Part shown: in pieces, positions 4,654 through 59,805 of the stretch | How the letters are laid out: each line of letters starts with the position of its first letter | How positions within the stretch are numbered: position 1 is the first letter of the stretch | Assembly: GCA_015680905.1 (NCBI GenBank) | Contig: CM027379.1 | Coordinates: forward strand, 101,235,001-101,299,000 | DNA: 64,000 bases | Direction of reading: 5' to 3' | From: Coptis chinensis | Lineage: Eukaryota; Streptophyta; Magnoliopsida; Ranunculales; Ranunculaceae | Translations under genes and position numbers: made by a program | Notes under the pieces: generated by a model | The model's input: only the letters and a program-made list of their open reading frames with translations | Databases searched by the model: none | Told to the model about the DNA's origin: nothing

Positions 4654-4789
4654 TTAGAGCATTTGCAATGCAGGTGAAAGTTTTCCCTCCCTTATTCACA
4701 GCCACCTCATCACTTATTCACCCTCTTTTCACCAAAACGGTGAAAAACAAGGTGAAGCTGTGCAATGCAAAGGTGAATAAAATATTTCG

Positions 4790-4885
4790 GACGGAATGTT
4801 AGATTCCGTCTTGAGGTTTTTGATTGAGACGGAATGTAACATCCCGTCTGGTATTTTATAACGAGACGGAATGTAACATCCCGTC
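4790..4885. repeat. Palindrome block, left (3 copies)
   Basis: Three 21-bp imperfect palindromes of the form GACGG-N11-CCGTC at 4790-4810, 4828-4848 and 4865-4885. The first has perfect 8-base arms (GACGGAAT/ATTCCGTC). The other two read GACGGAATGTAACATCCCGT plus C. Their position just inside the TIR suggests binding sites for the transposase or the Myb-like protein (inference). Confidence 0.85.
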
Positions 4886-4976
4886 TGATGACTCAATATG
4901 AACAGACGCGAACAGACTCCATTTTTACTTCCTTCCCAGCCAAAATTGCAATTTTCTAGCCTCCATTAACAAGCTT

Positions 4977-7410
4977 TTGACACAAACTTCCATTCCTAAT
5001 GACTTCTCTACCCCAAATGCATCCCCACCAACCTCACCACATAAAGAGCATTCCCGATGGTTTGGAAATGTCAAAATTTCCAAAAAAAAGGGCAAAAATG
5101 ATCGTCATCAAGAACGCGTAATGTGGGCGAGGAGGACGAAATTGAACTTGGGTTCAATTTTCCACCGCGTTGTGAAATCGAGGAACACCAACCATTAGCG
5201 TCAATATCGGTCCGACACGTAGCAAATCGAGTGGCGGAGTCTCAAGTAAGTTTTTGATTTTTTTTATGTTAATTATTATTATTTATATTAGTTTATATCA
5301 AGTTTGTTGTTGTGTAATTAGTTTGAATTTGTCGCATTGTTTTAAAAAAAATAGTTGTAATTATATCGTATTACGTGTTGGTTGAATGTAGGAAGTACAC
5401 CTATGGAAAGTGCGTTGTGCACTTTCAAATGTTGTGTCGTGGTGGCGTTGTATAAAATCAAAAACGGATCCTAATTTTGTCATGGTTACCGACATTATAT
5501 CCGCCACACCATTTGAGAACTTGTTGAATTCTAATTTGGGACAAAATGATCAAGCGTTGTTGTTTGGGATAGTTGAGCGGTGGTGGCAAAATACCCACAC
5601 ATTCCATTTCCCATGGGGTGAGCTTGGGATTACCCCTCTTGATTTCACAATGCTCACGGGTATCCCAATTAGTTATAGAGATGTCGTTCCTTTTGATGAA
5701 ACTTTAGAGGTTTTTACTACGGCGATGAGTTTCTTTGAAGGTTTTGATTTGGTTGAAAATGATGAGCAAGACGGGTTTTTGAGATTATCGGTTGAGCAGT
5801 TTAAGAAAGGAGCTATAAATATGAGTTGGTTTACTTCGAGATATTTGAATAGACTCAAGGAGAAGCCAAAAGACTATCATATTGGTGAGGAGTCGATCCA
5901 CGAGTATGTACGTGCCTTCCTCTTCTACTTTGTTGGTGCGGTATTATTTGGATATGCTGATAGTTATTTATGTATCGGGTGGATGGCCGCTGTCTCAGAT
6001 GTAGAGAGGATGTGGGATTATGACTGGGGTCAATCCATCTTGACATACCTTTACCGCTGGCTAGACCTCGCAGTTGAGACGAAAGCCGCTAAAGGCAATT
6101 TGTGTGGCTTTCTTTGGATTATACCGATAAGTCTTATTTATTAAGTTATTGTTTCATTTCATTTATTTATCTAATTATTAATGTTGACATGTTTATATAT
6201 ATATTGTATTTTATCTATTGATGGCAGTATTGGTGGTACGAACATTTTCGTGTGATGCATCCTGTGTTGAAGAGGTTGGAAAAGGATGAGACTCATGACC
6301 TGATTCCACGTATTCAAGCATGGGGGCTTCATCGTAGGCAGAGGGGGTATGGGGACCTATTGCATAATATTCATAACACTCATCAGCAGATTGAGCTTTT
6401 AGGAGCTACCCAAATTGAATGGCAACCCTGGGCCGAGTCCTTCATCTTTCAGACCCCTTATGCGGATATTCCAGATGTTCCAGAGAACACTGAGTACCGT
6501 AGACTATCCTATATGTGTCATAGAGCAAGGTTTCTTTCTGGGCGAATGATACTTATAGGGTCGATCCAACACATGGTACCTTGGGGACAGATGTTGGCGG
6601 CAAGTATCTGGAGAGATTGTTATACCTTACCCACCACCCATAGATATGACAGCCTCGATATTCTTCTTGCTACTCCTTTCACACTATAGAGCAAACCCAA
6701 ATGAGTGGCGACGATCGGTTTTCATTTTACGGGGAGACTATGACTTATATTGGAAGAGGGTTGGTCGAGGTCTCTTGCTAGGTGTGCGTTATACGGGGCA
6801 CCAATTTTGAAGGGGTTACTACGGAGCATTGAGGCCCGACATTCATTTCGGGAGGAGTGGAGTTGCCACGCAGATCCACAACCCAAGGTGTTTCATGATA
6901 TTCAGATGCCATGAAAGAACTCCACGATATTTGATGATGATGACCTTTGGCACTCGAGCATGATTACTTCTCGGGGGCAAGATATGAGAATACCTATTCC
7001 ACCGGTAGATGCCGCAGATGGTAGCAGATTTGTGTCAAGATCTGAGTTTGAAGCAGTTAGCCGAGGTTAGTATGATTTGAATTTATTCATGATTTGTTAT
7101 TATTAGTATTCACTATAACCCATAACATGCATTTGTTTTGTTAAATAGGATGAAGTAAGGTCGGAGCTCCTTAACTACAGCTCTCTCAGTTATGCCATGC
7201 GTGAGTCCTTCATGGAGTCCTCTCGTCACAGTTTTGAGTACTTACAAGAAGAGCGAAATTGAACTTTGCAGCTTCAGAGACGTGTGCAAGAGTTGGAGAA
7301 TGCTGCAAGTGCCACACCTCAAGCTCAACCTCAACCAGAGAGGCGACAACGACGTAGGGGGGAGAGCTCTTCGACCGAGCCTTCTCGTAGGGGGAGGAGG
7401 TCTCAGTAGA
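4977..7410 (+). pseudogene. Plant mobile domain (MAIN-like) passenger gene, broken
   Basis: The PMD (PF10536 type) is found in the nuclear MAIN/MAIL1 and PP7-long-form proteins and in transposon-borne copies. Exon 1 ends HVANRVAESQ at 5245 with GTAAG donor. Exon 2 (5392-about 6122) carries the domain core: QALLFGIVERWWQNTHTFHF, PWGELGITPLDFTMLTGIPI, and later an AFLFYFVGAVLF helix. Exon 3 (6228-7065) begins YWWYEHFRVMHPV; exon 4 (7149-7410) ends in an Arg/Ser-rich tail after a coiled-coil-like LQLQRRVQELENAA. Lesions: exon 2 appears to end at ATAAGT where a GTAAGT donor is expected; one extra base near 6572 shifts the frame just before YLGDRCWRQ; a TGA sits at EERN* in exon 4; exon 1 has no clean start. 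The intron structure shows a genomic-type copy and not a retrocopy. Confidence 0.85.
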
Positions 7411-8233
7411 TATTTTTTTGTAGTTTGTAATAATTGTGCGCCATTACTTGTCTTATGGCGTTTGTGATTGTTGTTTGTAATGACTTTTTTATTAGCAGGT
7501 TTTTCTTTGATGAGTTTTGGATATGAATATGTCATTAAACAAAGGAGGTTATGTCCAATTTTTTTTAGAAATTACAAGTTAGTTTTTTTACCGAGTTTCT
7601 GTGTTAGACTTGGGTGTTGTTCATGATTGTTGTTTGTCTTATTTATTATTTTCAAAGTATATTAACAGGTTTTGGATATGAATATGTCAATAAAACAAAT
7701 GAGGTTATAGCAAAAAAAATTAAAAATTTATAAGTTCGTATGTTTCCAAAAATTTCACATTCGTTTCACTCATTTCCTGTCTTTGTTGAAATAGAAAATT
7801 TTGATGGAATATCACTCATTTTTGCAGGTGGTTTGGTTCTGACAGGTTCTGACATGAATAGTGTATGGGGATACTGAGACAGAATGTAACATCCCATCTA
7901 GTTTTTTTAGATCGAGACGGAATGTAACATCCCGTTTGGTTTTTAAGTCCTTCTCACTGCATCTTTTACTATTCCAAACATTGGAATTATGGATGGGGAT
8001 GGTGGCCCATTGAAATTATTGAGGGTACATTTGGATAGACATTTGGATACAATGTGTTGTCACTTGGAGAGTGAACAAAAATCTGATAAAATGTGTTGTC
8101 AATTGGTAAGTGGACCAAAATCGAAGTATCACATGTGACCTTACCTTTCATATTTCGTTTTACTCTTCTTTCTTTTAGATCAAACAAACAAACAACCATC
8201 TTCTTCCCCACAACCAAGCTAAAAATAGGAAAA
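7411..8233. other. Junction between passenger and transposase
   Basis: Non-coding. Holds a short repeat (AGGTTTTGGATATGAATATG-like sequence near 7497 and again near 7666) and the middle palindrome block at 7878-7936. I see no gene. Confidence 0.5.
7878..7936. repeat. Palindrome block, middle (2 copies)
   Basis: Two copies of the same 21-bp motif at 7878-7898 (degraded: GACAG...CCATC) and 7916-7936 (GACGG...CCGTT). Subterminal repeats are not expected here, 3.2 kb from the nearest end. Confidence 0.85.
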
Positions 8234-9735
8234 ATGTCTAGAGAAAAAAAAAATTGCATATAACCAAAGGTTATGGGGAGGATCTAGTAGTAACAATTCG
8301 TCTTCAGGTTTTACCGAGTCGTCTTCTGGTACTTCTGCTGAAGATGACTACATGGAAAGAGTAAGAGATGAGCATAATGATATGATGAGGCGAAGGAGGA
8401 GGAGGAGGTTGCAATTATTATTATCTACTGTTGGGGCATTAATGACTCAAGCAGCCATTGAAATTGAAGATGTGGATACAGACAAACGCGGTGGATTTGT
8501 GAAGGGCAGAGAGTACACGTTTAGAGATGGTGGTGATTTCAGTAAACAAAAGGTAATGAGGGATTACTTCACAACACCTTGTAGGTGGCCTCCTCATAAG
8601 TTTAGACGAAGGTACAGGATGACAAGAGAGCTTTTTATGTATATGTTGCATACTGTTGCATCATTCGACGATTACTTTAAAGACAAGGTGGATGCATTGG
8701 GTCGGCAAGCAATTTCTGGGTTACATAAGGGACTAGCTGCAGTTGCACAATTAGCAACTGGTTGTTCTTCTGATTCAACGGATGAGTATTTACAAATTGG
8801 AGATTCCACAGCAAATGTATCTATAAAGCGTTGGTACAAGACAATAATCACAGTGTTTGAGGAAGAGTACTTGAGACGACCAACTGAGGCAGACACTGCT
8901 AGGATATTAGCTGAAAATGCAGCAAGGGGTTTTCCATGAATGCTTGGATCAATCAACTGTATGCACTGGGTGTGGAAGAATTGTCCAAGTGGATGGGCTG
9001 GAACACATGTAGGGTACAAGAAGGAACCAACTTTGATACTTGAAGCCGTTGCAGACAAACATTGTTGGATCTGGCATTGCTTCTTAAAACTTTACGTGTT
9101 CGCGATAATGACATTAACATGCTTCATCGTTCTCATGTTTTAAATCATTAGAGCAAGGTGAGGCTCCGCTGTTGCATTTAATGTGAATGGTAATGACTAT
9201 GATATGGGATATTATCTTGCTGATGGTATTTACCCAAAATGGGGCACATTTGTTCAAGCCATTCGTTATCCAAGAAATAAGCATGAAAAGATCTTTACTC
9301 AACGTCAAGAAGCTGCAAGAAAGGATGTTGAAAGGACGTTGAAAGGACGTTTAGAGTTTTGCAGGCACGATGGCATATTGTTAAGGCTTCTGCGCATTGT
9401 CATAGTGTTGTTGTTCTTGGAGACATAATGAAGGCATGCATTATAATGCATAATATGATTGTTGAGAATGAACGTGAAAGTGGAGTTTGGAATTGGAAAG
9501 GTCGAGGAAAGAAACAATACCCGCTCTTTTCGGGGAAGATGATGGTTTTCATTTTGTCTATCAGATGATTGAAGCAAGAAATAAGATCAGAAATCAAGTT
9601 ACACATACTAATCTTCAAAAGGACTTAGTTGAACATGTTTTTAATTGAACTAGCATTGAAGAAACAGCAGATCCGGTACCAATTTATGATCCAAATTGGT
9701 CGGATCCAGATGAGGGAGAAGGAGGCAAAAATTAA
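8234..9735 (+). pseudogene. PIF/Harbinger DDE transposase, broken
   Basis: This is the DDE nuclease that cuts and joins Harbinger ends. The open part from 8352 contains the family's YFTTPCRWPPHKFRRRYRM and RWYKTIITVFEEEYLRRPT segments, then GFP*MLGSINCMHWVWKNCP with the first catalytic Asp position read as Asn (usual GSIDCMHW) and a TGA replacing Gly at 8937-8939. ILEAVAD follows. After a frameshift near 9083 comes NDINMLHRSH (second Asp region), then after another VNGNDYDMGYYLADGIYPKW, ARKDVER (catalytic Glu region), and QARWHIVK...ACIIMHNMIVENE. An 11-bp tandem duplication (GTTGAAAGGAC, about 9328-9349) causes another frameshift. An upstream ATG at 8234 joins the frame only if the A11 tract at 8244-8254 loses a base. 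At least four disabling changes are visible. Confidence 0.92.
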
Positions 9736-9762
9736 AATGGAAATGAAAGTGTATTTCCTATG

Positions 9763-10140
9763 TATTTCCTAACGTGAACTATTAAGTTCCAACGTATTTC
9801 CTATGTATTTCCTAATGTATTTCCTATGTAATTCCTAATGTATTTCCTATGTAATTCCTATAAGTTCTTATGTGTTTAATGAGTTGTGTTTTAATGAACT
9901 ATATTACAATGTATTTTAATTTTATTGGTAATTGTATTTCTATGAAAATAATTATATTGGACAGAACATACATAGTGCATTAATTAAAAAAACAGTTAGA
10001 TAAAAATACATAGTTCATTAATTAAAAATACAATGAAATTAAAATACATAGTGCATTAATTAAAAAGACAGTGAAATTAAAATACATAATGCATTAATTA
10101 AAATACATATTGCTTTAATTAAAATAAAATACTATATATT
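9763..10140. repeat. AT-rich short tandem repeats between converging genes
   Basis: From about 9763 to 9862, 12-14 bp units built on TATTTCCTATG and TAATTCCTAATG repeat. From about 9965 to 10130, a unit containing AAATACATAGTGCATTAATT repeats about four times. They lie in the 3' flank shared by the transposase and the Myb-like gene, which converge here. Confidence 0.75.
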
Positions 10141-10148
10141 ACATAAGC

Positions 10149-11274
10149 TTAGTTAGAGCTAGAACCACCTCTAGCCCTTGCCCATTCAGCACGTATTTCA
10201 GCTTGTTGTTGCTCGATTATAAAAGTGGTATCGGGATGGAGGACACTTGTATCGGTCGCTAAAATCTTAGCTTCATATTGCATCTTTTGAAGCCAATTTT
10301 TTTCCAATTGAACCTGATTTTTTTCTGCTTGAATCCAATTTTTTTCTTTTATTGCCATCACAGTTCTTTGACCATATACAAGTTCCCTTTCCCTAAGTTC
10401 TAAGCATTTTTGTGTTTCATTTGCATCCTGTGAAAATATATCCTCTAAACGTGTAAAGTAACCCTCCAACATACCAACTGATTTTTCTTGGTTCCTTTTG
10501 GAGTTGGCTTTCTTCGATCCAAGAGGACGCTCTATTTCTTGAGAACCCTCCAATTCAACTCCACCAACACTTGGTGAATTAGAAGTTGAATCTTCACTAT
10601 CATTTTTGCGACCTTTTCCCTTTGTGGGGCGGCTTAACCTTGCCTCAAAAACGTTACTCCACTTTGGATTATCCTTGAGTATAACGTAACAATGATCAAG
10701 TGAAAAAGCCGATTTTTCTTGTAGTTGGTACGTCATCCTTGCCTCGGACAACTAAAAAATAAAATGGTGGTAATTAGACTAAAATAATCACTAAGAGTAA
10801 GATAATTAAACTAAAATAATAATTAGACTAAGATAATAATTAGACTAAGACTAAAATGGAAATAATAAATACACTAAGACAATTAGACTAAGACGAAAAT
10901 AATTAGACTAAGACTAAGATAATCAATAAATTCCAAATTGACAACGTTATAATTACCCGGCTTTGTATTGTTGTACCACTTGCATGTCGAGCCTCCACCG
11001 CATTCACAATTGCAACAAACTTGTTCATCATTTTTGAAATATATTTCCACCTACCGCTAATTAAATCGGAAGACCTATCCGACCCACGTGCTTGATTGAA
11101 CTCGTTTGTTACACGATTCCAAAATCCTTTTGCATTTTGGAAAGCACCAATAATGGAGTCTTCACTAATTTTTATCCAAGCAAGACATAGAGCTTGATCA
11201 TCGGACATGCTAAAGTGAATTTTCACTTTTGCTTGAGTGCTACCACTTGCTTGAGATGCTTGAGTTGATGCCAT
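10149..11274 (-). CDS. PIF ORF1: Myb-like DNA-binding accessory protein
   Basis: Two exons on the minus strand: 11274-10957 and 10751-10149, joined by a GT-AG intron (donor GTAATT after ...TTIQSR, acceptor TTTTAG before LSEARM). The joined frame is open for 306 residues. Residues about 18-85 form the Myb/SANT-like trihelix seen in PIF ORF1 proteins (MSDDQALCLAWIKISEDSII, GFWNRVTNEFNQ, GRWKYISKMMNKF). Residues about 107-200 include QEKSAFSLDHCYVILKDNPK WSN and a basic linker (TKGKGRKN...KKANSKRNQ), and the C-terminus is a Gln/Lys/Glu-rich coiled coil. In this superfamily the accessory protein binds the element ends and brings the transposase to the nucleus. Unlike its partner it shows no stop or frameshift. 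Start chosen at the first ATG, 20 residues before the domain. Confidence 0.85.
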
Positions 11275-11450
11275 TTGATATTTTGTTTTTTTTAAGAACT
11301 GATTTTAAAGAAGAAGAAATATGATATATGATTGTTGGAAGTGTGAGTTGAAATGAAACAAATATTGTATATATACCAAAGTTTTTTATTTTGACCGTTT
11401 TTTACCGTTCTGACTTTCTGACCGTTGGTAAACTAGCCGTTAGGACTCCG

Positions 11451-11511
11451 GACGGGATGTTGGATTCCGTCTGGTGAGTTTTGTAATCCAGACGGAATCC
11501 AACATCCCATC
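11451..11511. repeat. Palindrome block, right (2 copies)
   Basis: 21-bp motifs at 11451-11471 (GACGGGATGTTGGATTCCGT plus C) and 11491-11511 (GACGG...CCATC), about 165 bp inside the right TIR, mirroring the left block. Confidence 0.85.
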
Positions 11512-12022
11512 CGAAGTTAACAAGTCAGTCACTATCTCGGTGGAAGGTTTCACCTTGTTTTGAACTGGGGAAAATAGTCACCGGGTTTTTCACCCCTGCA
11601 TTGCACAGCGTTTTTGGTCCCAACCCGGTGAAAAAAGTCACAAACCCCCCTTTTTTCCCTGCATTGCAAATGCTCTTAGAGCATCATCAAATCATTTCTA
11701 AATTTTGTTGTGACACCTCAGCGTTTTTTTTAATCAAAATTGTTAAAAACCCGTCAAGTACCAAAGCAAAATTTCTAAATTTGTTGTTTCGATTTTGCAC
11801 AACAAAAGTTGTCCGATCCCGTCCAGACAATTTTTTTTTATAAACGGCAAAAGTTGTCCCGTCCATCATTTCTCTCTATTTCTGTGGCGCCAAACCATTT
11901 TCAAGCCCATCGTTTCCCTCCATTTTCTACGCTATATATCAGATCAATCACAAGTAAAACATCCATATATTTTTCATTTATTCATCTCCTCTCATCAGTC
12001 ATAAACTTTCAATTATTTTGTC

Positions 12023-13453: not shown

Positions 13454-14542
13454 TTATCCAGAAAAAGAAAAATGCCCAAACTGTTGAGAAGGATGAGTAT
13501 GAATGTATGGATTAGGAGGGGTTGGAATGTATGGAGTAGAAGAGGTTGGATAATGAGGAATAGAAGGAGCAGCAGGAATACCTTGTTCTTGTTCAACCCA
13601 CTTACGATAGATAGCTGCTTGCTTAGCTTCCCAAAATGTCAGTTGAATACCGCTAAACTTGCTTAGATCAAGCATCATAATATCTTGTTCTTTTTGTGCT
13701 TCAAGCATCAATATTTCGTTTTCTTTTTCCTTTTTCATTGAGAGGAACATTTGTCGTTTTAGCTCTGTTTGTTCTTGCAGATATTTTGCAGTTGTAAGTT
13801 GATTGTCTCTGACCTCCTCCAGAGTTTGTACCATTTGGTGCGCAATTTCATCAGCATCTATTTTCTTAAACTTTCTTCCTTTTGGCCGTTTTTCTGATTC
13901 AGGCACTTCCCTCGATGGTTGACTTTCTTTATCTAACGAAATATTGGCTATTCCAATATTGTTCACGATGGATCCACCACTGATGCCACCACTAACATCA
14001 CTACTAGAAGTGGTTCTCTGCTTTTTTGAACTACTATCACTTCTAGCTTTGATAGAAGTGATTCCATTTTGGAGTTAAAATTAAAATCCAATAACAATGC
14101 TCAAATTTAAATGGTTCATTTTGAACAATTGAAAAAATAGTACGAGCTCGTGACATTGTATCATCCGTATTAATACCACTAGCATTCATTCTCAATTGTT
14201 GATCATAATAACCTTGAAATAAACTTACCGCATGTTAGATTATGTGAAAACGCGCTTGAACCGATCCACCAGTTCGTAGTTGCCCTACATGACCAAACTG
14301 GCTCATACGCTTGCTAATTTCATCAGCAATTTTCTCAAAGAAAAAACATGTCTATTTTGGCCCGTTCCAACAACTGCATCTTCTGAAACAAAAATCCAAC
14401 TATGACATAAAATTTCATCTTCTACGGCTGTGAATTTTTTTAAACGACCTTGAACATAGATATGTTGGCTATTTTCTTGGCTTTGGTTTTCACTATTTCT
14501 ACCACCTCTATTTTCTCTATCTCTAGACCTTTGTAAAGACAT
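13454..14542 (-). pseudogene. Second PIF ORF1 Myb-like gene, broken
   Basis: The start is at the ATG at 14542 (MSLQRSRDRENRGG). The Myb-like start KFTAVEDEILCHSWIFVSED is followed by a frameshift near 14350. Traces of the ARFHII...RARTIF...EPFKFEHCYWIL region occur in shifted frames at 14060-14290. The C-terminal part is open at 13966-13454: a basic KRPKGRKFKK stretch, a long Glu/Lys/Met coiled coil (EIAHQMVQTLEEV ... MKKEKENEILMLEAQKEQD) and a Pro/Tyr-rich tail. Divergent from the ORF1 of the first element. Confidence 0.8.
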
Positions 14543-17658: not shown

Positions 17659-18945
17659 CTACAATTCCTCAATCTCGGATCCTTGTCTCGAAGAAGCCTT
17701 CGAACCTTGAGTACCCATCTCACTTCGGTATCCCTCCAAGAGTTTGGGTTCCTCGTTATGAAACTTGATCACATACTTTTTCAAGAACACCTCTTCCGCT
17801 ACGCTTAATGCTCGGCCAATACAATTCCTACTTATCAGACCCTTTGAAAGAAGAATCAGAAGAACATAAGATCTAGGAATGAGTCTCTTTTCCAAGCTGA
17901 GAGTGATAGATAACGAGTTCCTGGAAAAATCATCTGGAGTCCAATGAAAGGTATTCATGAAAAAACCCAGTGCTGCATTGATCTTCTTCACTGACGCAGT
18001 CATAATGAAGGGTTGCTTCTTGAACACACAAAGAACCTCATCCTCTGACCAGCCAAAACTCTTATAAACCTCCAATTTTGTGTCCCATGTAGACTTCTTA
18101 GACCCAATAAGCACACGGAATCCAATAGTGAACATCTTACTTGAAGGACTAATACCCATTTTCCTGAGTTGTAACACGACTTCATTAAGCTTGTGGAGTT
18201 CAGAACATAGAGTTTGGGGATTTGCCACCATCAACATTGAGATATGTGATTTGGGAATACCATGATCTAGCAGGAGTGCAATGTTATGTGCCATTCTGCG
18301 TTGTACACCAGTGGACCACTTTAATCGATTAAGAATGACGGCAATGCCAACGTCAGTGGGAACAAAGCTTCTTAGGAAATTGATGATAGGGATGATTTGC
18401 TTCTCTAAGCTTGACTTCAAAATACTAGTGTCCTTAGAGATGAGTTTACCAAGATTGGGTCTTGAAATGCCAATGTTATTGAAATATTCAAGCTTTGGTT
18501 TCAAGGTTTTATCTGGAGAGGCTCGGAGAAGTCGAGGGAGGCTAGAGATGAGTTTTGAAATGTGGGCATCAGTGAAGCCATAGGATTTGAGAAGGGAGAC
18601 AACTGAGTCGGGTCTAGTTGTTGTCGGTTTCTTGAGAGCAACCTTTTTAAAAGCTATGAGAGCTGATTCTGGGCTTAAACCACATAAGTTTATAAGGTAA
18701 TCTACTGTGAAATTGATGCATTTGGAAGCTTTGAGAGCTGATTCTTGGGTTAAGCCACATGAGTTTCTAAGGTAATCCACGGTGACATTTGGTTTTGGAC
18801 TGAGACTAGAGATGAATCTGGTGGGTGCTGGGTTTGGAAGAAGCAAATAATAACAATTCAACAACGGGGTCGTGGTACTGATTCTTGAATTTCGAACAGT
18901 TCTGACTCTAGTTATAAGATTTCGACAAACAAAATGATTAAACAT
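17659..18945 (-). CDS. mTERF family protein, 428 aa
   Basis: An open single-exon gene. mTERFs are alpha-helical superhelix proteins that bind nucleic acid in mitochondria or chloroplasts and affect organelle transcription, splicing or translation. The Arg-rich, acid-poor N-terminus (MFNHFVCRNLITRVRTVRNS) fits mitochondrial import. Repeated helical mTERF motifs follow: VVSLLKSYGFTDAHISKLIS, YFNNIGISRPNLGKLISKD, LLDHGIPKSHISMLM, VYKSFGWSEDEVLCVFKKQP, RSYVLLILLSKGLISRNC. The C-terminus is KKYVIKF...GTQGSKASSRQGSEIEEL. Unlike its paralogues it has the module TVDYL-CGL-ESAL twice (residues about 53-78 and 79-104), making it 30 residues longer. Its flanks are closely similar to those of the gene at 42042-43238. 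Function of these tandem mTERFs is mostly unknown. Confidence 0.93.
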   Translation of the reverse strand: MFNHFVCRNLITRVRTVRNSRISTTTPLLNCYYLLLPNPAPTRFISSLSPKPNVTVDYLRNSCGLTQESALKASKCINFTVDYLINLCGLSPESALIAFKKVALKKPTTTRPDSVVSLLKSYGFTDAHISKLISSLPRLLRASPDKTLKPKLEYFNNIGISRPNLGKLISKDTSILKSSLEKQIIPIINFLRSFVPTDVGIAVILNRLKWSTGVQRRMAHNIALLLDHGIPKSHISMLMVANPQTLCSELHKLNEVVLQLRKMGISPSSKMFTIGFRVLIGSKKSTWDTKLEVYKSFGWSEDEVLCVFKKQPFIMTASVKKINAALGFFMNTFHWTPDDFSRNSLSITLSLEKRLIPRSYVLLILLSKGLISRNCIGRALSVAEEVFLKKYVIKFHNEEPKLLEGYRSEMGTQGSKASSRQGSEIEEL

Positions 18946-19282
18946 TGTAGAGAAAACAATCTATTAATTGGAACTTACAGATTAGTCAGTTGGAAAGAGG
19001 GAGAACAGCGCCTGCCTCCTTTGTTCACCCAAAACCCTGATGGCAAGGGCCTTATAGCGATACTTCCGATATATTTTGACCGATATCTCCTGATATCTCT
19101 AGTAAGGTTTTTCTTTTTACCTCAATAGCTTTCGAACCGTCCTAGTCTTAGGAATATGGTGCCGTTGTATTAAATTATTCTAAAAAAATATTCGAACTAT
19201 GCAAATCTATTTATAAGATATGAATATTATATTGGTCACTCATTAAAATTTCTTGCAATATGAAAATCACACTTCAGATAAA
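18946..19282. other. 5' flank of mTERF gene
   Basis: The first 80 bp upstream of the ATG are nearly identical to the flank of the 42042-43238 gene and contain GTAAGTTCC (18973-18981 on the minus strand), 33 nt upstream of the start. No gene. Confidence 0.6.
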
Positions 19283-27039: not shown

Positions 27040-29885
27040 TTTTGAGATTAGTTCAATCCATTAGTATTTAATTTCTGATTTTCCGTTAAATATTTTTTGA
27101 GATTAGTTCATTGTATTTGTATCCAGTTTTCGATTTTCTATTAATTAATCTTTAAGGTTAGTTCAATACAATTAAATCAAGTTTCTGATTTCCCATTTTC
27201 CAATTTTCGTTAATTATTCTTTGAGGTTAGTTCCATGGATTTGCATCTAGTTTTGGATTGTCGGTAATAACTCTATGAAGTTAGATCAATGCATTTGCAT
27301 CCAATTTCCAATTTCCCATTAATTATTTTTTAAGTTAGTTCAATGCATTTGCATATAGTTTTCGATTTCCATCTAATTATTCTTTGACGTTAGTTTGATG
27401 CATTCGCATCTAGTTTTCGATTACACCTTAATGATTTTTTGAGATTAGTTCCATGCATTGGCATCTTGCTTCCGATTTGCCGTTAATTATTCCTTGGGGT
27501 TAGTTCTATTCATTTGCATCCAGTTTCTGATTTCATGTTAATTATTCTTTAAAGTTAGTTCCTTGTTGTTGTATCTAGTTTCCGATTTCTCGTTAATTAT
27601 TATTTAAGGTTAGTTCAATGCAATGTTGCATCCAGTTTTCAATTTCCCATTAATTATTTTTTGAGGTTAGTTTGATGCAGTTGCATCCACTTTCCAATTT
27701 CTTGTTATTTTTTCTTTGGGGTTAGTTTGATGCAGTTTCATGTTGTTTCCGATTACCCATTAATTACTCTTTGAGGTTAGTTTGATGCATTTATATCCAG
27801 TTTCCGAGTTCCCGTTAATTATTCTTTGAGGTTTGTTGAATTGCATCCAGTTTCCGATTGGCTATCAATTATTCTTTGAGATTAGTTCAATGCACTTACA
27901 TCCAGTTTCTAGTTTCCCGTTAATTATTCTTTGAGGTTAGTTCATTGCAGTGTTACATCCAATTTTCAATTTCCCGTTAATTATTTTATGAGGTTAATTA
28001 GTTCATTGTAGTGTGCATCCGGTTTCCGATTTATTGTTAATAATTTCTTTGAGGTTAGTTCGTTACATTTGCATCCAGTTTTCAAAATTTGTCCCACTAA
28101 TTATTTTTTGAGGTTTGCTCAATGCATTTGTATCAAATTTTTTATTTTTCGTTAATTATTCTTTAATGTTAGTCGATGCATTTGCATAGGGGTGGCAGTT
28201 TTGTACACGACTCGCTAACCCGACACTAATCCGACACGAAATTAGCGGGTTTGGGTTGGAAAAAAAGGCTTTTGGGTCATTTAAGGGTTGACCCACCAAA
28301 CCCGTCAAATAAATGGGTTGGGTTAGGGTCACACATGTTAACCCGGGTAACCCGTTAGTATACCCGATTAGTTTCCAGGTCCAATGGGTCGGGTCATCAA
28401 CCCGTGACCTGTATGACCTGTTTTAAGTCCTTAAACATATATGTTTCCGAATTTTATTAAATCTCATAATCCCAATTACCTAAAAGAAAATACTAAACAG
28501 AAAATGATCAACTAGATTTAGAAGGATAAGCCGGCAATTCAGCATATAGAATATTATAGATTCATTCAATAAAATATATTATCATGTACATTAACATTGA
28601 AGTCTCAATTATATAAAGAGAACAATAAAGCCGTCAAAGTCATAATAATATTTGCATTTATTTAATAATAGGTTTGCCCATGAGGTAGCAAAGTGGATAA
28701 ACTGGACATGCATGGTTGTTGTTTCTAGTTTGGTTATGTTTTTTGTTTGGCTAACAGGTTGTTTCACTTGTTTGGTTCAGGCGTTCAGCAGATGCATGTG
28801 CTTCAACAACTCTGTGCACTTTTGCAAGTTCTTTTATTATTTAGATTAATAAATATTCTTTATCCAAAAAAAAAAAAAATAGAACTTACGGGTTATCTGT
28901 TAACCCAATCCAAAATTGACCCGCTGGCTTAGCGGGTCACCCGTTAGATAACCCGTTACATATGCGGGTTGGGTTTGGGTTTGACAAACTTGACACGATT
29001 AGTAATTGGGTCGGGTTTGGGTTTGCTCTCCTAACACGTGACCCGAGTATGACACGACACGAACCCAACCCAACACGACCCATTGCCACCCCTACATTTG
29101 CATCCAATTTTCGATTTCCCATTAATTATTCTTTGAGGTTAGTTAGCTGGATTTGCATCCGGCCAGTTTCCAATGTCATGGTAATTATTCTTTGATTCAA
29201 TGTAGTTGTATCCAACTTCTAATTTTCAATTAATTATTCTTTGAGGTTAGTTAAATTCATTTGGATCCAGTTTCCAATTTCACGTCAATTATTCTTTGAG
29301 AATAGGTCGATGCATTTGCATCCAGTTTTTTATTTCCCGTTAATTATTTATTTGAGGTTAGTTAGTTTATGCAGTTGCATCTAGTTTTTTATTTTCCGTT
29401 AATTATTCTTTGATGTTAGTTCAATACATTTTTATCCAGTTTCTAATTTCTAGTTAATTAATTTTTCTTTGACGTTAGTTCAATGCAGTTGTATCAAGTT
29501 CCCGATTTTCCACTAATTATTCTTTGAGGTTAGTTCGATGCATTTGCATCAAGTTTTCGATTTTCCGTTAATTATTCTTTTAGGTTAGTTCAATGCAATG
29601 TTGTATCCAATTTTCGATTTCCTGTTAACTATTCTTTGAAGTTTGTTCAATGCATATCAAGTTTCTGATTTCACATTAATATTCTTTAATGTTGGTTCAA
29701 TGCGTTTGCATCCAGTTTTCCAATTTTGCGTTAATAACTCTTTGAGATTAGTTCGATGCATTTGCATCCAGTCTCATATTTCCATTTACCCTTTAATTAT
29801 TCTTGAGGTTAGTTCAATTCATTGCAGTGCTACATCCAGTTTCCAATTTCCTATTAATTATTCTTTGAGATTAGTTCGATGCACT
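27040..29885. repeat. 55-bp minisatellite, about 35 copies, split by a hAT element
   Basis: Degenerate tandem units of about 55 bp. The consensus runs CCGTTAATTATTCTTTGAGG, then TTAGTTCAATGCATTTGCAT, then CCAGTTTCCGATTTC. The array occupies about 27040-28186 and resumes at 29095-29885 after a 908-bp hAT insertion. Units vary by small indels and substitutions (for example TTCGATGCA versus TTCAATGCA), so the array is old. No coding frame or tRNA/rRNA feature is present. Confidence 0.9.
28187..29094. mobile_element. Non-autonomous hAT element, 908 bp, TSD CATTTGCA
   Basis: Ends TAGGGGTGGCA and TGCCACCCCTA are inverted repeats. The 8-bp duplication CATTTGCA flanks both sides (28179-28186, 29095-29102), diagnostic of hAT. 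The subterminal regions are rich in GACCC/GGGTC and GGGTTGGGTT motifs. No transposase is encoded. The target is the minisatellite unit itself. Confidence 0.92.
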
Positions 29886-35925: not shown

Positions 35926-37285
35926 CTGAAGAAAGCCCGATTCATAGGTTAGTCACAGGCTCTCTTTGTGTTCAAGTTATTTTATTATTCAGTGTTCCAA
36001 ACTTCTTCAATACACTAAGATCGCGTATCAAAGACGCTATTCATACGCATAGCAAGGAGGCATTCAGGTACTCCTTTTTTCACTCCTTATCTCTTCTGTC
36101 ATAGGAGTTTTAATTGTAGTATATCAGGTTGTTGTTTGACTGCTGCTAGTGTTTTTTTTTCATATTGGCCTTGGCCTTGCATGAGATTAAGGTTCGGTAA
36201 GAGTAAACCATCTAACGTTATCTATCGTAAACGTCAACGCACACGCCTATCTAGAATACCACACACTACACCTACATCAATGGCTGAAGAAACAGAGACT
36301 CCTCTCTCTGATTTTTACAAAGCCCTAAATGATAGCCCTAAGTCATGCATCGTTCTTGCAGACCCAGTGGGGGATTTTCGAATTCCCCCGAATATATTTA
36401 ATTTGTTACCGGTTTTTCATGGGTTAGACCACGATAAGCCTTATCAGCATATGCAAAAGATAGAACAAGTTCTTACCACATTTCATCATCCTACCGTAGG
36501 TTCGGAACAAATTAAACTAAGGGTGTTTTCTTTCACCCTAGCCGATAAGGCGGTATCTTGGTTAACTGCCCAAATGCCTAATTCTGTAAACTCATGGGCC
36601 AAACTTGTTCAATTGTTCATGAAACAGTTTTATCCACCACTGAAGACAGATGAAATGTTTCAAAAGATTCATTTCTTCTGCCAAAATCCTCATGAATTAT
36701 TTTCAGAGGCTTGGAATCGTTTCACTGATATTCTCATTGAATGCCCGCATCATAACCTTGGGAAAGAAACGCTTGTTCGGGCCTTTTTCAAAGGGATTTT
36801 ACATCATCATAAAGAGGTTCTTGATATAATGACTAAGGGTAGTTTCCTTAGTAAAGGAGCTTTAGAGACTTATAGGTTTTTAGAAGATCAATCTAAGCGT
36901 AATAATAACTAGGGGAGGGGGGGGGGGTACCGATATATTCCGCTCCATTAATTCTTCTTCCACAGCCAAGGCTGCCAGTATGTTTGAGGTTAAAACTGAT
37001 CCCGAGCTTAGAACTCTAATCGAATCTCTCCCAAAAAAGGTAGAAGCCATTTATATACAACATAAGCCTACTCCTGTCATGAACATCAACTCTCTTCCAT
37101 GTAATTTCTGTTGCAGCCTTGAACATACCGACTCCTATTGTCCACTTCTCTATGAACAACTATCACAACCACCATCACAACCGGATAATGTTTGCTCCGT
37201 TAATAGCCTTCATATTCCTAACGCACCTTGGAGACAAAATCCCAACTTCAGTTTGGAGAAATAATCAACAAGTTACACTTCCGGG

Positions 37286-42041: not shown

Positions 42042-43238
42042 CTATAATTCCTCAATCTCAGATCCTTGTTTGGAAGAAGTCTTCGAACCTTGCGTACCCA
42101 TCTCACTTCGGTACCCCTCCAAGAGTTTGGGTTCCACGTGATGAAACTTGATGACGTACTTTGTCAAGAACACCTCTTCAGCTACTCTTAATGCTTGGCC
42201 AATACAATTCCTACTTATCAGACCCTTTGAGAGAAGAATCAGAAGAACATAGCATCTAGGAATGAGTCTCTTTTCCAAGCTGAAAGTGATAGATAATGGG
42301 TTCCTGGAAAAATCATCTGGAGCCCAATTAAGGGTATTCATGAAAAAATCCAGTGCTGCATTGATCTTCTTCACTGAAGCAGCCATAATGAGGGGTTGCT
42401 TCTTGAACACACAAAGAACCTCATCCTCTGACCAACCAAAACTCTTATAAACCTCCAATTTTGCGTCCCATGTAGACTTCTTAAACCCAATAAGCACACG
42501 GAATCCAATAGTGAACATCTTACCTGAAGGACTAAAACCCATTTTCTTGAGTTGTAACACGGCTTCATTAAGCTTGTGGAGTTCAAAACATAGAGTTTGG
42601 GGGTTCGCCACCATCAACATTGAGATATGTGATTTGGGAATACCATGATCTAGAAGGAGTGGAATGTTATGTACCATATTGCGTTGTATACTAGATGACC
42701 ACTTTAATCGATTAAGAATAACAGCAATGCCAACGTCAGTGGGAACAAAGCTTCTAAGGAAATTGATGGAAGGGACTATATGCTTCTCTAAGCTTTCCCT
42801 CAAGAAAAGTACGTCCTTATATATGAGTTTACCAAGATTGGGTCCTGAAATTCCAATGCTATTGTAATATTCAAGCTTTGGTATTAATCTATTCTCAGGA
42901 GAGGCTAGGAGAAGTCGTGGTTCGGTTGCGATGATTTTGGAAATGTGGGCATCCGTGAAACCATAGGATTTGAAGAGGGAGAGAACTGAGTCGGGTCTAG
43001 TTGTTGTGGATTTATCGAGCCCAATGTGTTTGGAAGCTTTGAGAGCTGATCCTGGGGTTAACCCACATGATTTTACGAGGTAATCCACGGTGAAATTTTG
43101 TTTTGGACTGAGACTAGAGATGAATCTGGGGGGATGGGTTTTGAAGAAGCAAAAATAATAACAATTCAACAACGGGGTTGAATTTCGAACAGTCCTGACT
43201 CTAGTTATAAGATTTCGACAAACAAAATGATTAAACAT
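42042..43238 (-). CDS. mTERF family protein, 398 aa
   Basis: An open single-exon gene, nearest paralogue of the 17659-18945 gene: same presequence (MFNHFVCRNLITRVRTVRNS), same C-terminus (GSEIEEL), and near-identical 5' flank for about 80 bp. It has one TVDYLVKSCGLTPGSALKAS module (residues about 53-75) where the paralogue has two. The mTERF motifs follow in order: SLFKSYGFTDAHISKIIATE, YYNSIGISGPNLGKLIYKD, LLDHGIPKSHISMLMVANPQ, VYKSFGWSEDEVLCVFKKQP, KGLISRNCIGQALRVAEEV. Predicted mitochondrial, organelle nucleic-acid binding. The start is the only ATG before the presequence. It is head-to-head with the RING-H2 gene, start codons 514 bp apart. Confidence 0.93.
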   Translation of the reverse strand: MFNHFVCRNLITRVRTVRNSTPLLNCYYFCFFKTHPPRFISSLSPKQNFTVDYLVKSCGLTPGSALKASKHIGLDKSTTTRPDSVLSLFKSYGFTDAHISKIIATEPRLLLASPENRLIPKLEYYNSIGISGPNLGKLIYKDVLFLRESLEKHIVPSINFLRSFVPTDVGIAVILNRLKWSSSIQRNMVHNIPLLLDHGIPKSHISMLMVANPQTLCFELHKLNEAVLQLKKMGFSPSGKMFTIGFRVLIGFKKSTWDAKLEVYKSFGWSEDEVLCVFKKQPLIMAASVKKINAALDFFMNTLNWAPDDFSRNPLSITFSLEKRLIPRCYVLLILLSKGLISRNCIGQALRVAEEVFLTKYVIKFHHVEPKLLEGYRSEMGTQGSKTSSKQGSEIEEL

Positions 43239-43752
43239 TGTAGAGAAAACAATCTATTAATTGGAACTTACAGATAAGTCAGTTGGAAAGAGGGAAAACA
43301 GCGCCTGCCTCCTTTCTTTAAAGTTTAAACAACCGAACTCAAACCCTGGTGGACAATATTTCGACCGATATTTTTATTAAGGTCTCTTTTACCTCAATAT
43401 ATCGAAACAAATTTCGGCAAACAAATTTCGGCAATGAAAAAAAATATACAAACTTGATGGTACTTTTACGGACAAAGTTCGGTTAAAAAAAAAATATACA
43501 TATTATGCCGTGGTGCTAAACTCCTTTCAAATACTATTTTCTCTCCTACATTTACAAAAATATCAAATTACCAATTGGACTCAACCTTACAAAATATCAA
43601 AAAAAAAAAAAAAATACACTTTTGCTACTAAAAAAACTTGGTTTCCTACTGAAAAATTAGATTAATTAACTTTTAGTAATCTATTGGATTAGTTATTTCT
43701 TCTTTGTCTATTCAAATTTTTGTTGATTCAACAAAAAAAAGAAAAAAACATC
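43239..43752. promoter_or_regulatory. Shared divergent intergenic region
   Basis: 514 bp separate the start codons of the minus-strand mTERF gene and the plus-strand RING gene, so it must hold promoters of both. The mTERF side carries GTAAGTTCC 33 nt from its ATG. An A-rich run lies at about 43600-43615. No core promoter element is convincing enough to name. Confidence 0.5.
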
Positions 43753-46069: not shown

Positions 46070-47266
46070 CTACAGTTTCTCAGTCTTACATCCATATTCC
46101 ATGGAGACAATGTGTAAACCTCGAGTCCCCATCTTTTGTTGGTATTCCTCAAGGAGTTCTCGTATCTCATGATGATGCTCAATCACATACTTCTTCAAGA
46201 AGATGTCTTCAGCTACTCTTAATGCCTTTCCAATACCATTCTTACCTATCAAGCCCCTTGAGAGCAGAGTTTGAAGTACATAACTTCTTGGTTTGACTCT
46301 CTTTACCAAGCTAAATGTTAAGACACTTGAGTTGTTAGAAACATCAAGTCGAGTCCAATTCAAGCTCTTCATAAGAAAATCTAATGCGGATCTTATTTTC
46401 TCCACTGAATATCGCATGAAGATGGGGTACTTCTTGAACATAGAGATAAATTCATCTTCGGACCAACCAAAACTCCTAAAAACCACCACCTTCGCTTCCC
46501 ATGTAGTCTTGTTAATTTGCAAACGGATACTTAGGCCTTCCATGAAAAATTTAGTGGAGGGACTAAATCCCATTTTCTTTATCTCCAACAGCAATTCATG
46601 AAAACGAGCAGATTTATTACACAAAGCTTGAGGGCTTGTCATCAAGGACATTGAGATATTGGATTCAGGGACACCATGGTATCGCAGGATGGCAATGTTC
46701 GGTCCCAATACCCTTTCTACATTATAGAGCACCCGAGCAACCCGACTAAGAATGATGGTGAATCTATCATCTGTGGGTGCGAGGTTCTTAAGGATATCGA
46801 CAGAAGGGACAATTCTCTTCTGTAAGCTTGATGTCAACAAATTTGAGTCCGTGGATAGGAGTTAACCAAGATTGGGTCCTGAAATGCCAATGTTACTGTA
46901 ATATTCAAGCTTGGGTTTCAAGGTTTTCTCCGGAGAGGCTAGGAGAAGTCGAGGGTCATAGGCAATGAGTTTTGAGATGTGGGCATCAGTGAAACCATAG
47001 GATTTGAAGAGAGACAGAACAGAATTAGGTTTAGTAATTGTGGATTTCTTGATAACAACTTTTTTGGAAGCTTTGAGAGCTGATTCTAAGGTTAACCCAC
47101 ACTTATTTATGAGGTAATCTACTGTGAAACTTGCTCTCTCCTCCTCATCATTGGGTTTTGGGAATCTGAATGGTGATGGTTTTTGGAACAAATACAAACA
47201 ATGGCTAACTTTCGGTCTTGAATCTCTAACAATATTTCTGCATACATAATGAAATTGATGGAACAT
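46070..47266 (-). pseudogene. mTERF gene with a single nonsense codon
   Basis: The frame runs 398 codons from the ATG at 47266 to the stop at 46070, interrupted only by TAA at 46862-46864 (codon 135). The paralogues have AAA (Lys) here: ISGPNLG-K-LI versus ISGPNLG-stop-LL. Otherwise complete: presequence MFHQFHYVCRNIVRDSRPKV, FTVDYLINKCGLTLESALKA, SLFKSYGFTDAHISKLIAYD, RYHGVPESNISMSLMTSPQA, VFRSFGWSEDEFISMFKKYP, RSYVLQTLLSRGLIGKNGIG, and end GCKTEKL. One A-to-T change would account for the loss, so the gene may be a recent pseudogene, polymorphic, or a sequencing error. GTAAGTT lies 30 nt upstream of the start. Confidence 0.88.
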
Positions 47267-48833: not shown

Positions 48834-49991
48834 CTACAATTTCTCAGTCTTACTTCCATCTGTGGAGCCAATATGTACACCTTGAGTACCCATCATTCGT
48901 TGGTATGCTTCAAAGAGTTCAGGTATCTTATCACGATGCTTGATCACATATATCTTCAAGAACATGTCTTCAGATACTCTGAAAGCTTGACCCATACCGT
49001 CCTTACTTATTAGACCCTTTGAGAGCAGAGTTTGAATAACATAACTTCTTGGGATGATTCTCTTTTCCAAGCTAAATCCTATAACAGCTGCGTTTTTAGA
49101 AAAATCAGATCGAGTCCAATTCAGGCTCTTCATAAGAAAATCTATAGCTGATTTCAATTTCTCCACAGAATAGGCCATAACAGAGGGTTGCTTCCTGAAC
49201 ATAAAAATACACTCATCTTCGGACCACCCAAAACTCCTAAAAAACGCCACCTTCGCTTCCCATGTAGTCTTCTTTAAACCCAAAAGCACAAATAGGCCAT
49301 TTATAAACGTAGTGCTCAAGGGACTAAAACCCATTTTCTCAAGTTCTAATACTATTTCGTTAAAACGGTCAGATTTATGACACAGGAGATTAGGGCGAGT
49401 CATTATGGACTTTGATATATTGGATTCCGGCACACCATGGTGTCTCAGGATCGCAATGTTTGGTGCCATTAACATTTCTGCTTCATAGAGCACCCTACTC
49501 CCCTTCCTAAGAACAAAGCCAATGTTTTCATCTGTATGAACTAAGCTCCTAAGGAAATTAACTGAAGGAATAACCTGTTTCTCTAAACTTCTTGTCAAGA
49601 CACTTACATCAGACATCACAAATTTTCCAAGATGGGGTCCAGAAATGCCGAGGTCACTGAAAAATTTAAGCTTGGGCTGTAAAACTTGATCTGGATTGCG
49701 AAAGAGCAGTGAGGGGAGTGTTGTGATTATCTTTGAGATGTGGGTATCAGTGAAACCATAGGATTTCAGGAGGGAAAGAACCGAGTCAGGTTTAGCTGTT
49801 GTGGGTTTAAGTAGAATCTTTTTAATTAGAGCTGATTCTGGGGATAACCCACATGAGTTTATAAGGTAATCTAGTGTGGTATTTGAGTTTGAGATTGCAT
49901 TGGTAGATATGAATCTAATGAGTGATGGGTTTTGAAGCAATTGGCTAATATTTGTTATTAAACTACTTCTGCAAACAAAAAAATGGAACAT
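48834..49991 (-). CDS. mTERF family protein, 385 aa
   Basis: An open single-exon gene. Presequence MFHFFVCRSSLITNISQLLQ, then LDYLINSCGLSPESALIKKI, SLLKSYGFTDTHISKIITTL, FFSDLGISGPHLGKFVMSD, ILRHHGVPESNISKSIMTRP, FFRSFGWSEDECIFMFRKQP, DFLMKSLNWTRSDFSKNAAV, RSYVIQTLLSKGLISKDGMG and a GSKTEKL-type end (STDGSKTEKL). It is closer to the 46070-47266 gene than to the 17659/42042 pair, so the array contains at least two open subfamilies. Mitochondrial targeting is likely from the presequence. GTAAGTT is 37 nt upstream of the ATG. Confidence 0.93.
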   Translation of the reverse strand: MFHFFVCRSSLITNISQLLQNPSLIRFISTNAISNSNTTLDYLINSCGLSPESALIKKILLKPTTAKPDSVLSLLKSYGFTDTHISKIITTLPSLLFRNPDQVLQPKLKFFSDLGISGPHLGKFVMSDVSVLTRSLEKQVIPSVNFLRSLVHTDENIGFVLRKGSRVLYEAEMLMAPNIAILRHHGVPESNISKSIMTRPNLLCHKSDRFNEIVLELEKMGFSPLSTTFINGLFVLLGLKKTTWEAKVAFFRSFGWSEDECIFMFRKQPSVMAYSVEKLKSAIDFLMKSLNWTRSDFSKNAAVIGFSLEKRIIPRSYVIQTLLSKGLISKDGMGQAFRVSEDMFLKIYVIKHRDKIPELFEAYQRMMGTQGVHIGSTDGSKTEKL

Positions 49992-51050
49992 TATTGTATG
50001 TGATAATTGACGATAAAATTCAACTTACAAATTTTTGACGTTCCCTTAAAGTCTGATATGCATCATCTCTTGAAAATGTTATAAGAGCACAGCGGAACAA
50101 AACCTGTGAAAGAAAAACCCTAAACCCAACGGTCAAAAACGACATGCACTTGGTGCTACTCCATTACGACTGGGCTCCAAATAGCCCATCACTAACCCAA
50201 ACGTTTAATGCAAATCTGACCGTTCTCTTGTGCCTATTTGATGATTCTGATCCGTGAAATAACACGATCATCAACTCGTTGTGATCATAAAAGTTTGTTT
50301 AACTTTTAAACTGTTGCATCAGTTTAGGGAGATTCTGAATTTTTCATTCATTTGCATTTCCTTTTTGCACTTCTCATCCAAATGGGTAACTCCTAAGTCA
50401 AGCTTGGCACCATAAGATTATATATTTATATGGTCACTCAGAACCAGTTTAATTGTCATCTCAACATATAATCTATGAGAGGATCTGTTAATCCAACGTT
50501 TCGATGAATTATCTCCAAGTGAGTTTCTCAACTATGGAACCAACCACAATCTACACATACAGGCAGACAGACTGAATGACGGGCACCTAAGATATCATGC
50601 AGTTGTCCAAAACTACTGGGATTATAGCACTTAGACAAGAAAGAGACGCACCATGCTTAATGATTTATGCCGCTAAAATCTATATACTGGAAGAAGTTTT
50701 TTTTTGTTTTCCTCCAGTAAACTATATACTGGGAGAAGTACTTTGTGAAGTAAGTTCTATCTTGTAAGTACAAAATATAAGCGACGATCTCTCACTCCCA
50801 AATCTGGGCTCATTCCAAAGTTGAGTTGCTTAACAGTGAAACACAACCATCAACAGGCATAACATATGTCAAGATCCCTGCCCACCCCATAAAAAGGAGC
50901 CCTGTAGAAGTGTAAAGTTTAAACCATAACAGATGCCAGTCTAACACCAATTAGTGAAACATATCGACAAATCAACTCAAAGGGATACATAGAAAAGCAG
51001 TATAAAGATTGGTCTTACAGTACTCATGCCATTAAATTTGCCTTCATTAA
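49992..51050. other. 5' flank and spacer of mTERF gene
   Basis: Non-coding. Two nearly identical ACTATATACTGG-type segments occur near 50685 and 50725. No gene seen. Confidence 0.5.
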
Positions 51051-56629: not shown

Positions 56630-57804
56630 TTTTACAATTCTCAATCTTACGTCCACCTTCGAACTCAATATCTAAACCTTGAGTACACATCTTTCGTCGG
56701 TATGACTTCAACAGTTAGCTATCTCATTAAAAACACGTCTTCCGCTACTCTTTACGCTTGACCACACCACCTTTACTTCGCAGACCCTTTGATAGCTAAG
56801 TTTAAAGAACAACTTATTGGAATGATTCTCTTTACCAACCTTAGTGCTACAACACAAACTTATTAGGATGAACAGCTGGTGTCCAATTCAACGTCTATAT
56901 AGCAAAATCCACCAGTGGATTCATTTCCATCACCAGACACGCTACAAAAAAAGGCTGGTTCTTAAACAAAAAGATAACCACATCTACCCAGTAGCTAAAA
57001 CTCCCAAAAAAACAAAAACGCCAATCTGGCTTCTCATACACCCCTCTGCGCCGTCAAAAGATGATTTAGGCGTACCATGAAGTATCTACTACGCGGAAGA
57101 ACACCCAAACCCTTTATTATATCAAATACCAATTCCCTAAAATGGTCAGAGTTATAACAAAGATTTCGAGGGTTCCAAAACATCAACTGCGATATATGCT
57201 TTTCAGGACAACCACATTCTCTGAGAGTATTTATATTCTTTCCCATTACCCTTTCCGGCTCATGGAGTACCCAACTCCAACGAATAACAAGTGCCGTAAA
57301 TTGATTTTGATTTGGAAGAAAACTCCTAAGGTAATTAACCGAGGGTATAATATGGTCCTCCAAACTTCTATTAAAAACGCCTATATCATTGGAAACAAGT
57401 CTTCCAAGCTTGGGTCCAGAAATGCCAATTCCTTGGAAATACTCAAGTCTGGGTCTAATAATTTCATCAGGATCATAAAAAAGCACTGATGGGTATCTCC
57501 TTATAAGTAGTGAGATACTGGATTCCATAAAACCATGGGACTTAAACAGACATAGAACTTCATCTGGTGTAGCAGTGGAAGTGATTACAATGTGTTTGGA
57601 AACTTTGTGAGCTTCTCTTGGGGATAACCCGCATGAGTTCATAAGGTAAGATTGCGTACAAGTTGGTCTTCCCAGGACGAATTCTCGCCTTTTATATAAT
57701 GGCTCTTGTGTAAAATTACAGAAATGAACTTTTGTGGATGTTCTTGAATGTATAACAGATGTTAGTCTAGAAACTATATTTCTACCAAATAATTTATGGA
57801 ACAT
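56630..57804 (-). pseudogene. Divergent mTERF pseudogene
   Basis: An open N-terminal two thirds from the ATG at 57804: MFHKLFGRNIVSRLTSVIHS, SYLMNSCGLSPREAHKVSKH, VLCLFKSHGFMESSISLLIR, YFQGIGISGPKLGRLVSND, LRECGCPEKHISQLMFWNPR. The frame stops at 57034 after a frameshift. Degraded C-terminal sequence continues to about 56630 (TQGLDIEFEGGRKIEN). It is the most divergent member; GTAAGTT lies 45 nt upstream of its ATG. Confidence 0.88.
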
Positions 57805-59777: not shown

Positions 59778-59805
59778 GCAGGATGGCAACGTTTGAATAT
59801 AGACT
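59173..59805 (-). pseudogene. mTERF C-terminal half, broken
   Basis: Begins in mid-protein at about 59805 (SNVAILQDHGMPKS), then LISKLIIRNPRVLCLQSDKL, VYRSFGWSEDEVISMFKKNP, DFFMNNLNWTRDDFVRNATV, SLEKSL. A frameshift near 59395 shifts the remainder (ISNGLISYKGIGQALRVAED, KYVIKFLHEEPKLFEY) to a stop at 59173 (GSKEVEL). The N-terminal half is absent; sequence above 59805 is unrelated. Confidence 0.88.

Follow-up and report, generated by a model that had tools for sequence, protein, structure and literature searches.

A stretch of 64,000 nucleotides from Coptis chinensis (assembly GCA_015680905.1, contig CM027379.1, positions 101,235,001 to 101,299,000 of the forward strand; hereafter the window) harbours a PIF/Harbinger DNA transposon that carries, besides its transposase and ORF1 genes, a spliced gene for a plant mobile domain (PMD) protein. 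The PMD gene has moved as part of the element: all copies examined keep PMD sequence, those with a readable left terminal inverted repeat (TIR) have it in place, and most copies with both TIRs have exact target site duplications. As a protein it was conserved during the spread of the family. Copies of one near-palindromic motif precede all three genes. The reading put forward here, which could equally well prove right or wrong, is that of a high-copy PIF/Harbinger family whose long form of ~7 kb carries three genes, with the PMD protein acting on host silencing and the near-palindromes serving to co-regulate the genes.

The left and right TIRs match at 18 of 18 bases and differ at base 19. From left to right the genes are PMD, transposase and ORF1, the first two on the plus strand and ORF1 on the opposite one.

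4654-4656, no strand: target site duplication TTA, left
4657-11675: PIF/Harbinger element, recognised by TIRs, TTA duplications and gene content
4657-4674, plus: left TIR, 18 bp
4999-7409, plus: PMD gene, four exons (borders from reading frames and GT/AG sites across copies; start codon placed by eye)
about 4999-5245, plus: PMD exon 1
5392-6126, plus: PMD exon 2, open, N-terminal half of the Pfam PMD
6228-7065, plus: PMD exon 3, frame broken in the window copy
7149-7409, plus: PMD exon 4, R/Q-rich C terminus, one in-frame stop in the window copy
8234-9735, plus: Harbinger transposase gene (Plant_tran), frame broken in the window copy, limits by eye
10149-11274, minus: ORF1 gene, NAM-associated, two exons
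11658-11675, minus: right TIR
11676-11678, no strand: target site duplication TTA, right

A 3-bp duplication of the TTA/TNA type, short TIRs and a Plant_tran/DDE_Tnp_4 transposase are all present as PIF/Harbinger traits. In Pfam comparisons the window transposase matches Plant_tran at 9162-9425 (E 5.8e-24), and that of copy L013 matches Plant_tran and DDE_Tnp_4 (2.1e-90 and 5.2e-13). The second exon of ORF1 gives a NAM-associated match at 10152-10751 on the minus strand (E 1.4e-13), whilst its first exon has no Myb/SANT Pfam match up to E 0.1; judged by its architecture, ORF1 is presumably the Myb/trihelix-type partner. The element is not of the Pack type, in which a captured fragment replaces the element's own genes, as transposase and ORF1 both adjoin the PMD gene. 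The TIRs, the TTA duplications, both Harbinger genes and a PMD gene preceding the transposase in the same orientation, all reported in a preliminary description of the window, were thus observed again.

The PMD assignment itself rests on Pfam family PF10536, which matches exon 2 at 5392-6141 (E 4.3e-22; 79.2 bits against a cut-off of 34.9) and, as a weaker piece that alone lies below the cut-off, exon 3 at 6222-6686 (E 1.4e-4, 21.7 bits). Loci L105 and L106 score 74.6 and 47.9 bits, respectively, against this family. The gene had been described as decayed in the window, and it is: exon 3 has a frameshift when compared with other copies, a stop interrupts exon 4, and the donor of intron 2 has changed, being AT in the window and four others and GT in 22 of the 27 aligned copies, window included. 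Structure prediction for exon 2 from 15 sequences reached a mean predicted local distance difference test score (pLDDT) of 58.6, too poor for a fold search; a search of solved structures returned no matches, and a scan of viral contigs gave four pattern matches with no relative among them.

All copy searches were made in the single genome of the window (936 Mb, 116 contigs, of which nine are 85-125 Mb long). The best 40 of 524 candidates in a transposase DNA search, window included, are all at least 91% identical. Of the other 39, 29 were examined with an additional 2.4 kb upstream of each; their transposases share 93-94% identity with that of the window. PMD sequence is retained in 29 of 29. 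Exons 2 and 3 are covered to at least 93% in 18 of these, and in the remaining 11 the match starts inside the PMD gene or breaks within the fetched stretch, the extreme case being L023, where just the last part of exon 4 is left. Fifteen of the 29 have a recognisable left TIR (up to 3 mismatches), and in all 15 the PMD lies between it and the transposase. Both TIRs were located in 10 of the 11 other copies for which the right end was fetched; eight of these ten are flanked by exact 3-bp duplications (TAA, TTA, TCA), whilst L024 and L029 show one mismatch. Between the PMD end and the transposase start, no TIR-like 18-mer (up to 6 mismatches) was present in the five copies scanned.

A wider comparison used protein searches, in which the best 150 of 3319 PMD candidates, all 73-100% identical, were taken as the same family, and at least 87 transposase rows corresponded to 86 loci. 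A same-strand PMD lies within 15 kb upstream at no fewer than 46 of the 86 transposase loci, 43 of these being 1.7-4.1 kb away; random placement gave a mean of 0.11 and a maximum of 2 in 1000 trials, and the same-strand downstream and opposite-strand controls gave one each. Standing cargo, as had been proposed, is therefore an apt term: the gene keeps its position in many copies, is not bounded by separate TIRs in the five that were scanned, and bears a signal of purifying selection. The accompanying idea that relatives elsewhere may represent the active version finds partial support: copies are many and some frames are open (e.g. the L013 transposase), but the 29 examined are mostly visibly broken.

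The exact 18-mer TIR occurs 523 times genome-wide (266 forward, 257 reverse), against 0 and 0 for a reversed-pattern control, and so its occurrence is not due to chance. The first 100 of these sites yield 25 facing exact-TIR pairs, 13 at 404-786 bp and 12 at 6,088-7,975 bp; a two-gene element lacking PMD would measure about 4 kb, and none of the 25 comes close to that length. At least three of the 12 long pairs contain a PMD match and at least three more a match to the leftmost 584 bp of the element, a query that extends into PMD exon 1. The short pairs suggest MITE-like (miniature inverted-repeat transposable element-like) derivatives, with facing pairs of about 0.49 kb such as C1:1566386-1566856.

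Beyond this family, six further Plant_tran matches were examined for PMD over about 4.4 kb of upstream sequence, by tblastn and a home-made profile that recovers both positives. These positives, L061 and L062, belong to the same family and carry PMD. At L059, L060, L063 and L064, with 42-54% transposase identity, there was no PMD in about 4.4 kb upstream, the downstream side not having been read. As far as four loci tell, PMD appears not to be general to Harbinger elements in this genome.

Selection on the PMD was assessed by counting changes by parsimony on trees, which tells later decay apart from earlier change, the ratio of nonsynonymous to synonymous changes over expectation, with transitions weighted 3, being omega-like. 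Internal branches of the PMD tree (35 copies) carry 283 nonsynonymous and 174 synonymous changes (0.57) and terminal branches 1055 and 391 (0.95; Fisher p 6e-6). The transposase gives 0.64 internally versus 1.26 terminally (p 9e-4) and ORF1 0.57 versus 0.97 (p 0.02), and three non-coding control stretches, to which a dummy frame was assigned, give internal values of 2.19, 2.00 and 1.28. After removal of CpG sites the PMD remains at 0.57 (p 4e-5), with 0.68 for the transposase (p 8e-4) and 2.53 for one non-coding control. Exons 2 and 3 alone, without loci L105-L108, give 0.63 (p 0.016), and with L107 kept as the sole deep copy, its transposase confirmed beside it, the PMD ratio is 0.66 (p 0.004). 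Weak evidence comes from fixed differences between subfamilies, which for the PMD are 32 nonsynonymous to 22 synonymous between A and C (p 0.011) and 16 to 14 between B and C (p 0.010), C comprising three copies. The branch-based p values are exploratory, as their design followed from the earlier singleton and subfamily tests.

The near-palindromes form three clusters, each preceding one gene.

4790-4885, no strand: near-palindrome cluster 1, three GACGGAATGTAACATCCCGTC-type units, before the PMD gene
7878-7936, no strand: near-palindrome cluster 2, two units, between the PMD and transposase genes
11451-11511, no strand: near-palindrome cluster 3, two units with a strong hairpin, before the ORF1 gene

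With up to 3 mismatches, the 21-bp GACGGAATGTAACATCCCGTC-type unit is present in three copies ahead of the PMD and in two copies each ahead of the transposase and ORF1, and within the 64 kb it is confined to these clusters (0 in 100 shuffles). When up to 5 mismatches are allowed, none of the 11 full-length copies, that of the window among them, lacks a unit at any of the three places; the middle cluster is reduced to one unit in L020, L021, L024 and L028. Hairpin strength is marked in clusters 1 and 3 (z -6.1 and -9.0), with a z of 0.0 for the middle cluster. These units may be operators. The inner cluster was also considered as the fossil left end of an element that predated PMD acquisition; five copies show no TIR-like remnant there, which proves the matter neither way.

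Alignment with other PMDs in the genome pairs the core motif ERWW-TTHTFHFPWGELGIT of the element's PMD with their ERW-PETNTFHMPWGEMTIT, at 20-27% identity in one comparison and 19-26% in another. Over the aligned length, identity to the other PMDs examined is 19-27%, and one 41-residue stretch of L001 reaches 39%. Those PMDs of the genome that look MAIN-like share 19-24%. The earlier assignment to the MAIN/MAIL1/PP7-long-form class accordingly stands in that the gene encodes a PMD, whilst at 19-27% identity any placing in PMD-A, PMD-B or PMD-C would be tentative. PMDs are abundant in this genome, with at least 139 PF10536 matches (the best 117 of 3775 candidates scored), and include several other groups (L002-L008, L086-L104), many of which score well above the 79 bits of window exon 2. 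None of 115 top PF10536 matches lies within 15 kb of any of 149 top Harbinger matches, small-contig and second-exon rows excluded, and top-scoring PMDs are therefore not beside top-scoring Harbinger transposases.

In the host, the PMD proteins MAIN and MAIL1 take part in silencing transposable elements, and element-borne PMDs have been proposed as counter-silencing factors (PMC5418596, PMC7156037, PMC8616336). By analogy, the PMD protein of the Coptis element would act in the nucleus on host silencing, mimicking or titrating PMD complexes of the MAIN/MAIL type, and the transposase and ORF1 would thereby become expressible. The near-palindromes would be binding sites through which a protein of the element co-regulates the three genes. 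A more specific form of this proposal, in which the PMD is a third core gene that counters or hijacks the MAIN/MAIL pathway and the three genes on one palindromic operator constitute a self-contained regulon, is offered tentatively and with less confidence than the general one.

A number of points weigh against this interpretation. The anti-silencing step is drawn from analogy, and at 19-27% identity to other PMDs shared partners cannot be assumed. As to the cargo, 40 of the 86 transposase loci have no PMD match among the matches listed, and six of the 12 long TIR pairs were judged by length only. As to selection, the ratios are simple parsimony counts and not the product of a codon model; the signal leans on the deep-branching copies L105-L108, whose omission brings the PMD to 0.75 (p 0.13; CpG sites removed, 0.75, p 0.18), removal of CpG sites brings ORF1 to 0.64 (p 0.08), and exon 4 is without constraint (internal 1.09). 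Shared-versus-singleton variants, most differences being later decay, give no signal for the PMD or for the transposase and ORF1 controls and so are uninformative, and fixed differences between subfamilies A and B are not significant.

Among the alternatives, the one that fares best, though we consider it somewhat unlikely, holds that the PMD is a third transposition factor, assisting transposase and ORF1 in entering the nucleus, choosing targets or synapsing at the palindromes. An identical type of near-palindrome at both ends and internally would suit such a role, as would the R-rich C terminus of the PMD and an internal-branch constraint resembling that of transposase and ORF1; against this, four of four other Harbinger loci lack PMD in the upstream interval read, their downstream sides not read, and Harbinger elements are reported to require two element proteins, ORF1 and transposase (PMC2836001). 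Improbable by comparison is the capture of a passenger, a single Pack-type transduplication in which the PMD hitch-hiked through one burst, functionless for the element. That PMD is seen in one family of the genome, that copies now decay neutrally (by the terminal ratio and the shared-versus-singleton null) and that the selection signal is weak without the deep copies all agree with it, but internal branches record constraint on the PMD, the gene is spliced with frames largely open in several copies, a near-palindrome cluster precedes it and no class of about 4 kb exists among the 25 TIR pairs.

It is more doubtful still that L105 and L106 are host loci with a genic or domesticated PMD, the selection then belonging to the host. 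These are deep PMD copies whose second exons are free of stops when read in the reference frame and show a marked third-position excess, and no transposase is found at the expected place by L105; yet exon 3 of L105 (C9:25702080-25704110) has four stops and is followed by sequence that by eye is RNase H-like, L107 of the same clade has a transposase in place at 89%, and the signal persists with L107 only. Chance insertion or nesting of a separate PMD element in the window copy can be practically dismissed despite the abundance of PMDs in the genome, being refuted by the common position in 29 of 29 copies and at odds with the lack of TIR-like 18-mers between PMD and transposase in the five scanned.

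Other features of the window lie to the right of the element. A second NAM-associated ORF (open reading frame) at 13454-14074 minus (3.9e-6), about 2 kb away, may represent the ORF1 of a further Harbinger element. Next come clustered mTERF-type ORFs (17659-18960, 42042-43253, 46070-46861, 48834-50024, 57034-57864 and 59368-59835, minus), four of which were tested and match Pfam mTERF, the other two being assigned by resemblance only. At 27193-28187 and 29095-29883 there are two minisatellite arrays, both diverged, whose units of ~55 bp resemble each other, and a Retrotrans_gag ORF at 36019-36912 plus is overlapped at 36655-36758 minus by a snoR71 match above the gathering score.

PMD proteins silence transposons in Arabidopsis, yet transposons carry related PMDs. 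In the present family full-length copies are numerous, the three-gene layout is clear and selection can be measured, which makes the role of the carried PMDs testable in a simple cut-and-paste element. The family also suggests that recruitment of PMDs by DNA transposons is not limited to Mutator-like elements (MULEs); if the proposed reading is true, it would represent an independent recruitment besides those of MULEs. The preliminary description knew of no PMD as standing PIF/Harbinger cargo, and a literature search, with Repbase and subscription journals outside its scope, agrees in having found no such report. Three candidate papers were set aside: PMC4583175 names both in separate contexts, the 'pMD' of PMC3946583 is a cloning vector, and in PMC3769310 PF10536 and MULE-type transposases figure as listed classes of genes.

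The nearest known counterparts include Pong-like PIF/Harbinger elements with two genes, such as the Medicago MtPH families (PMC2213677) and those of the PHIS survey (PMC4482050), which share TIRs, a 3-bp TTA-type duplication, a DDE transposase, ORF1 and short non-coding derivatives with the window element; those elements have transposase and ORF1, whereas the window element adds a spliced PMD gene before the transposase, giving a long form of ~7 kb. PMDs are reported in both Gypsy elements and MULEs, with PF10536 in Gypsy consensuses of ten species (PMC9289625), and PMD-C was captured twice by MULEs, an anti-silencing role being speculated upon (PMC5418596). The grass and Amborella MULEs with PMD-C are, like the window element, DNA transposons carrying a PMD, but theirs is a fusion with the MULE transposase, whilst the PMD here is a separate four-exon gene in another superfamily (PMC5418596). 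The PMDs of Ty3/Gypsy elements (PMD-A, PMC5418596; PMC9289625) are also encoded by a transposable element and differ in having a retrotransposon as carrier. VANC of VANDAL21 (PMC8616336) provides a further parallel as an accessory gene of a DNA transposon, in that case described as a suppressor of silencing, with no homology to the PMD claimed.

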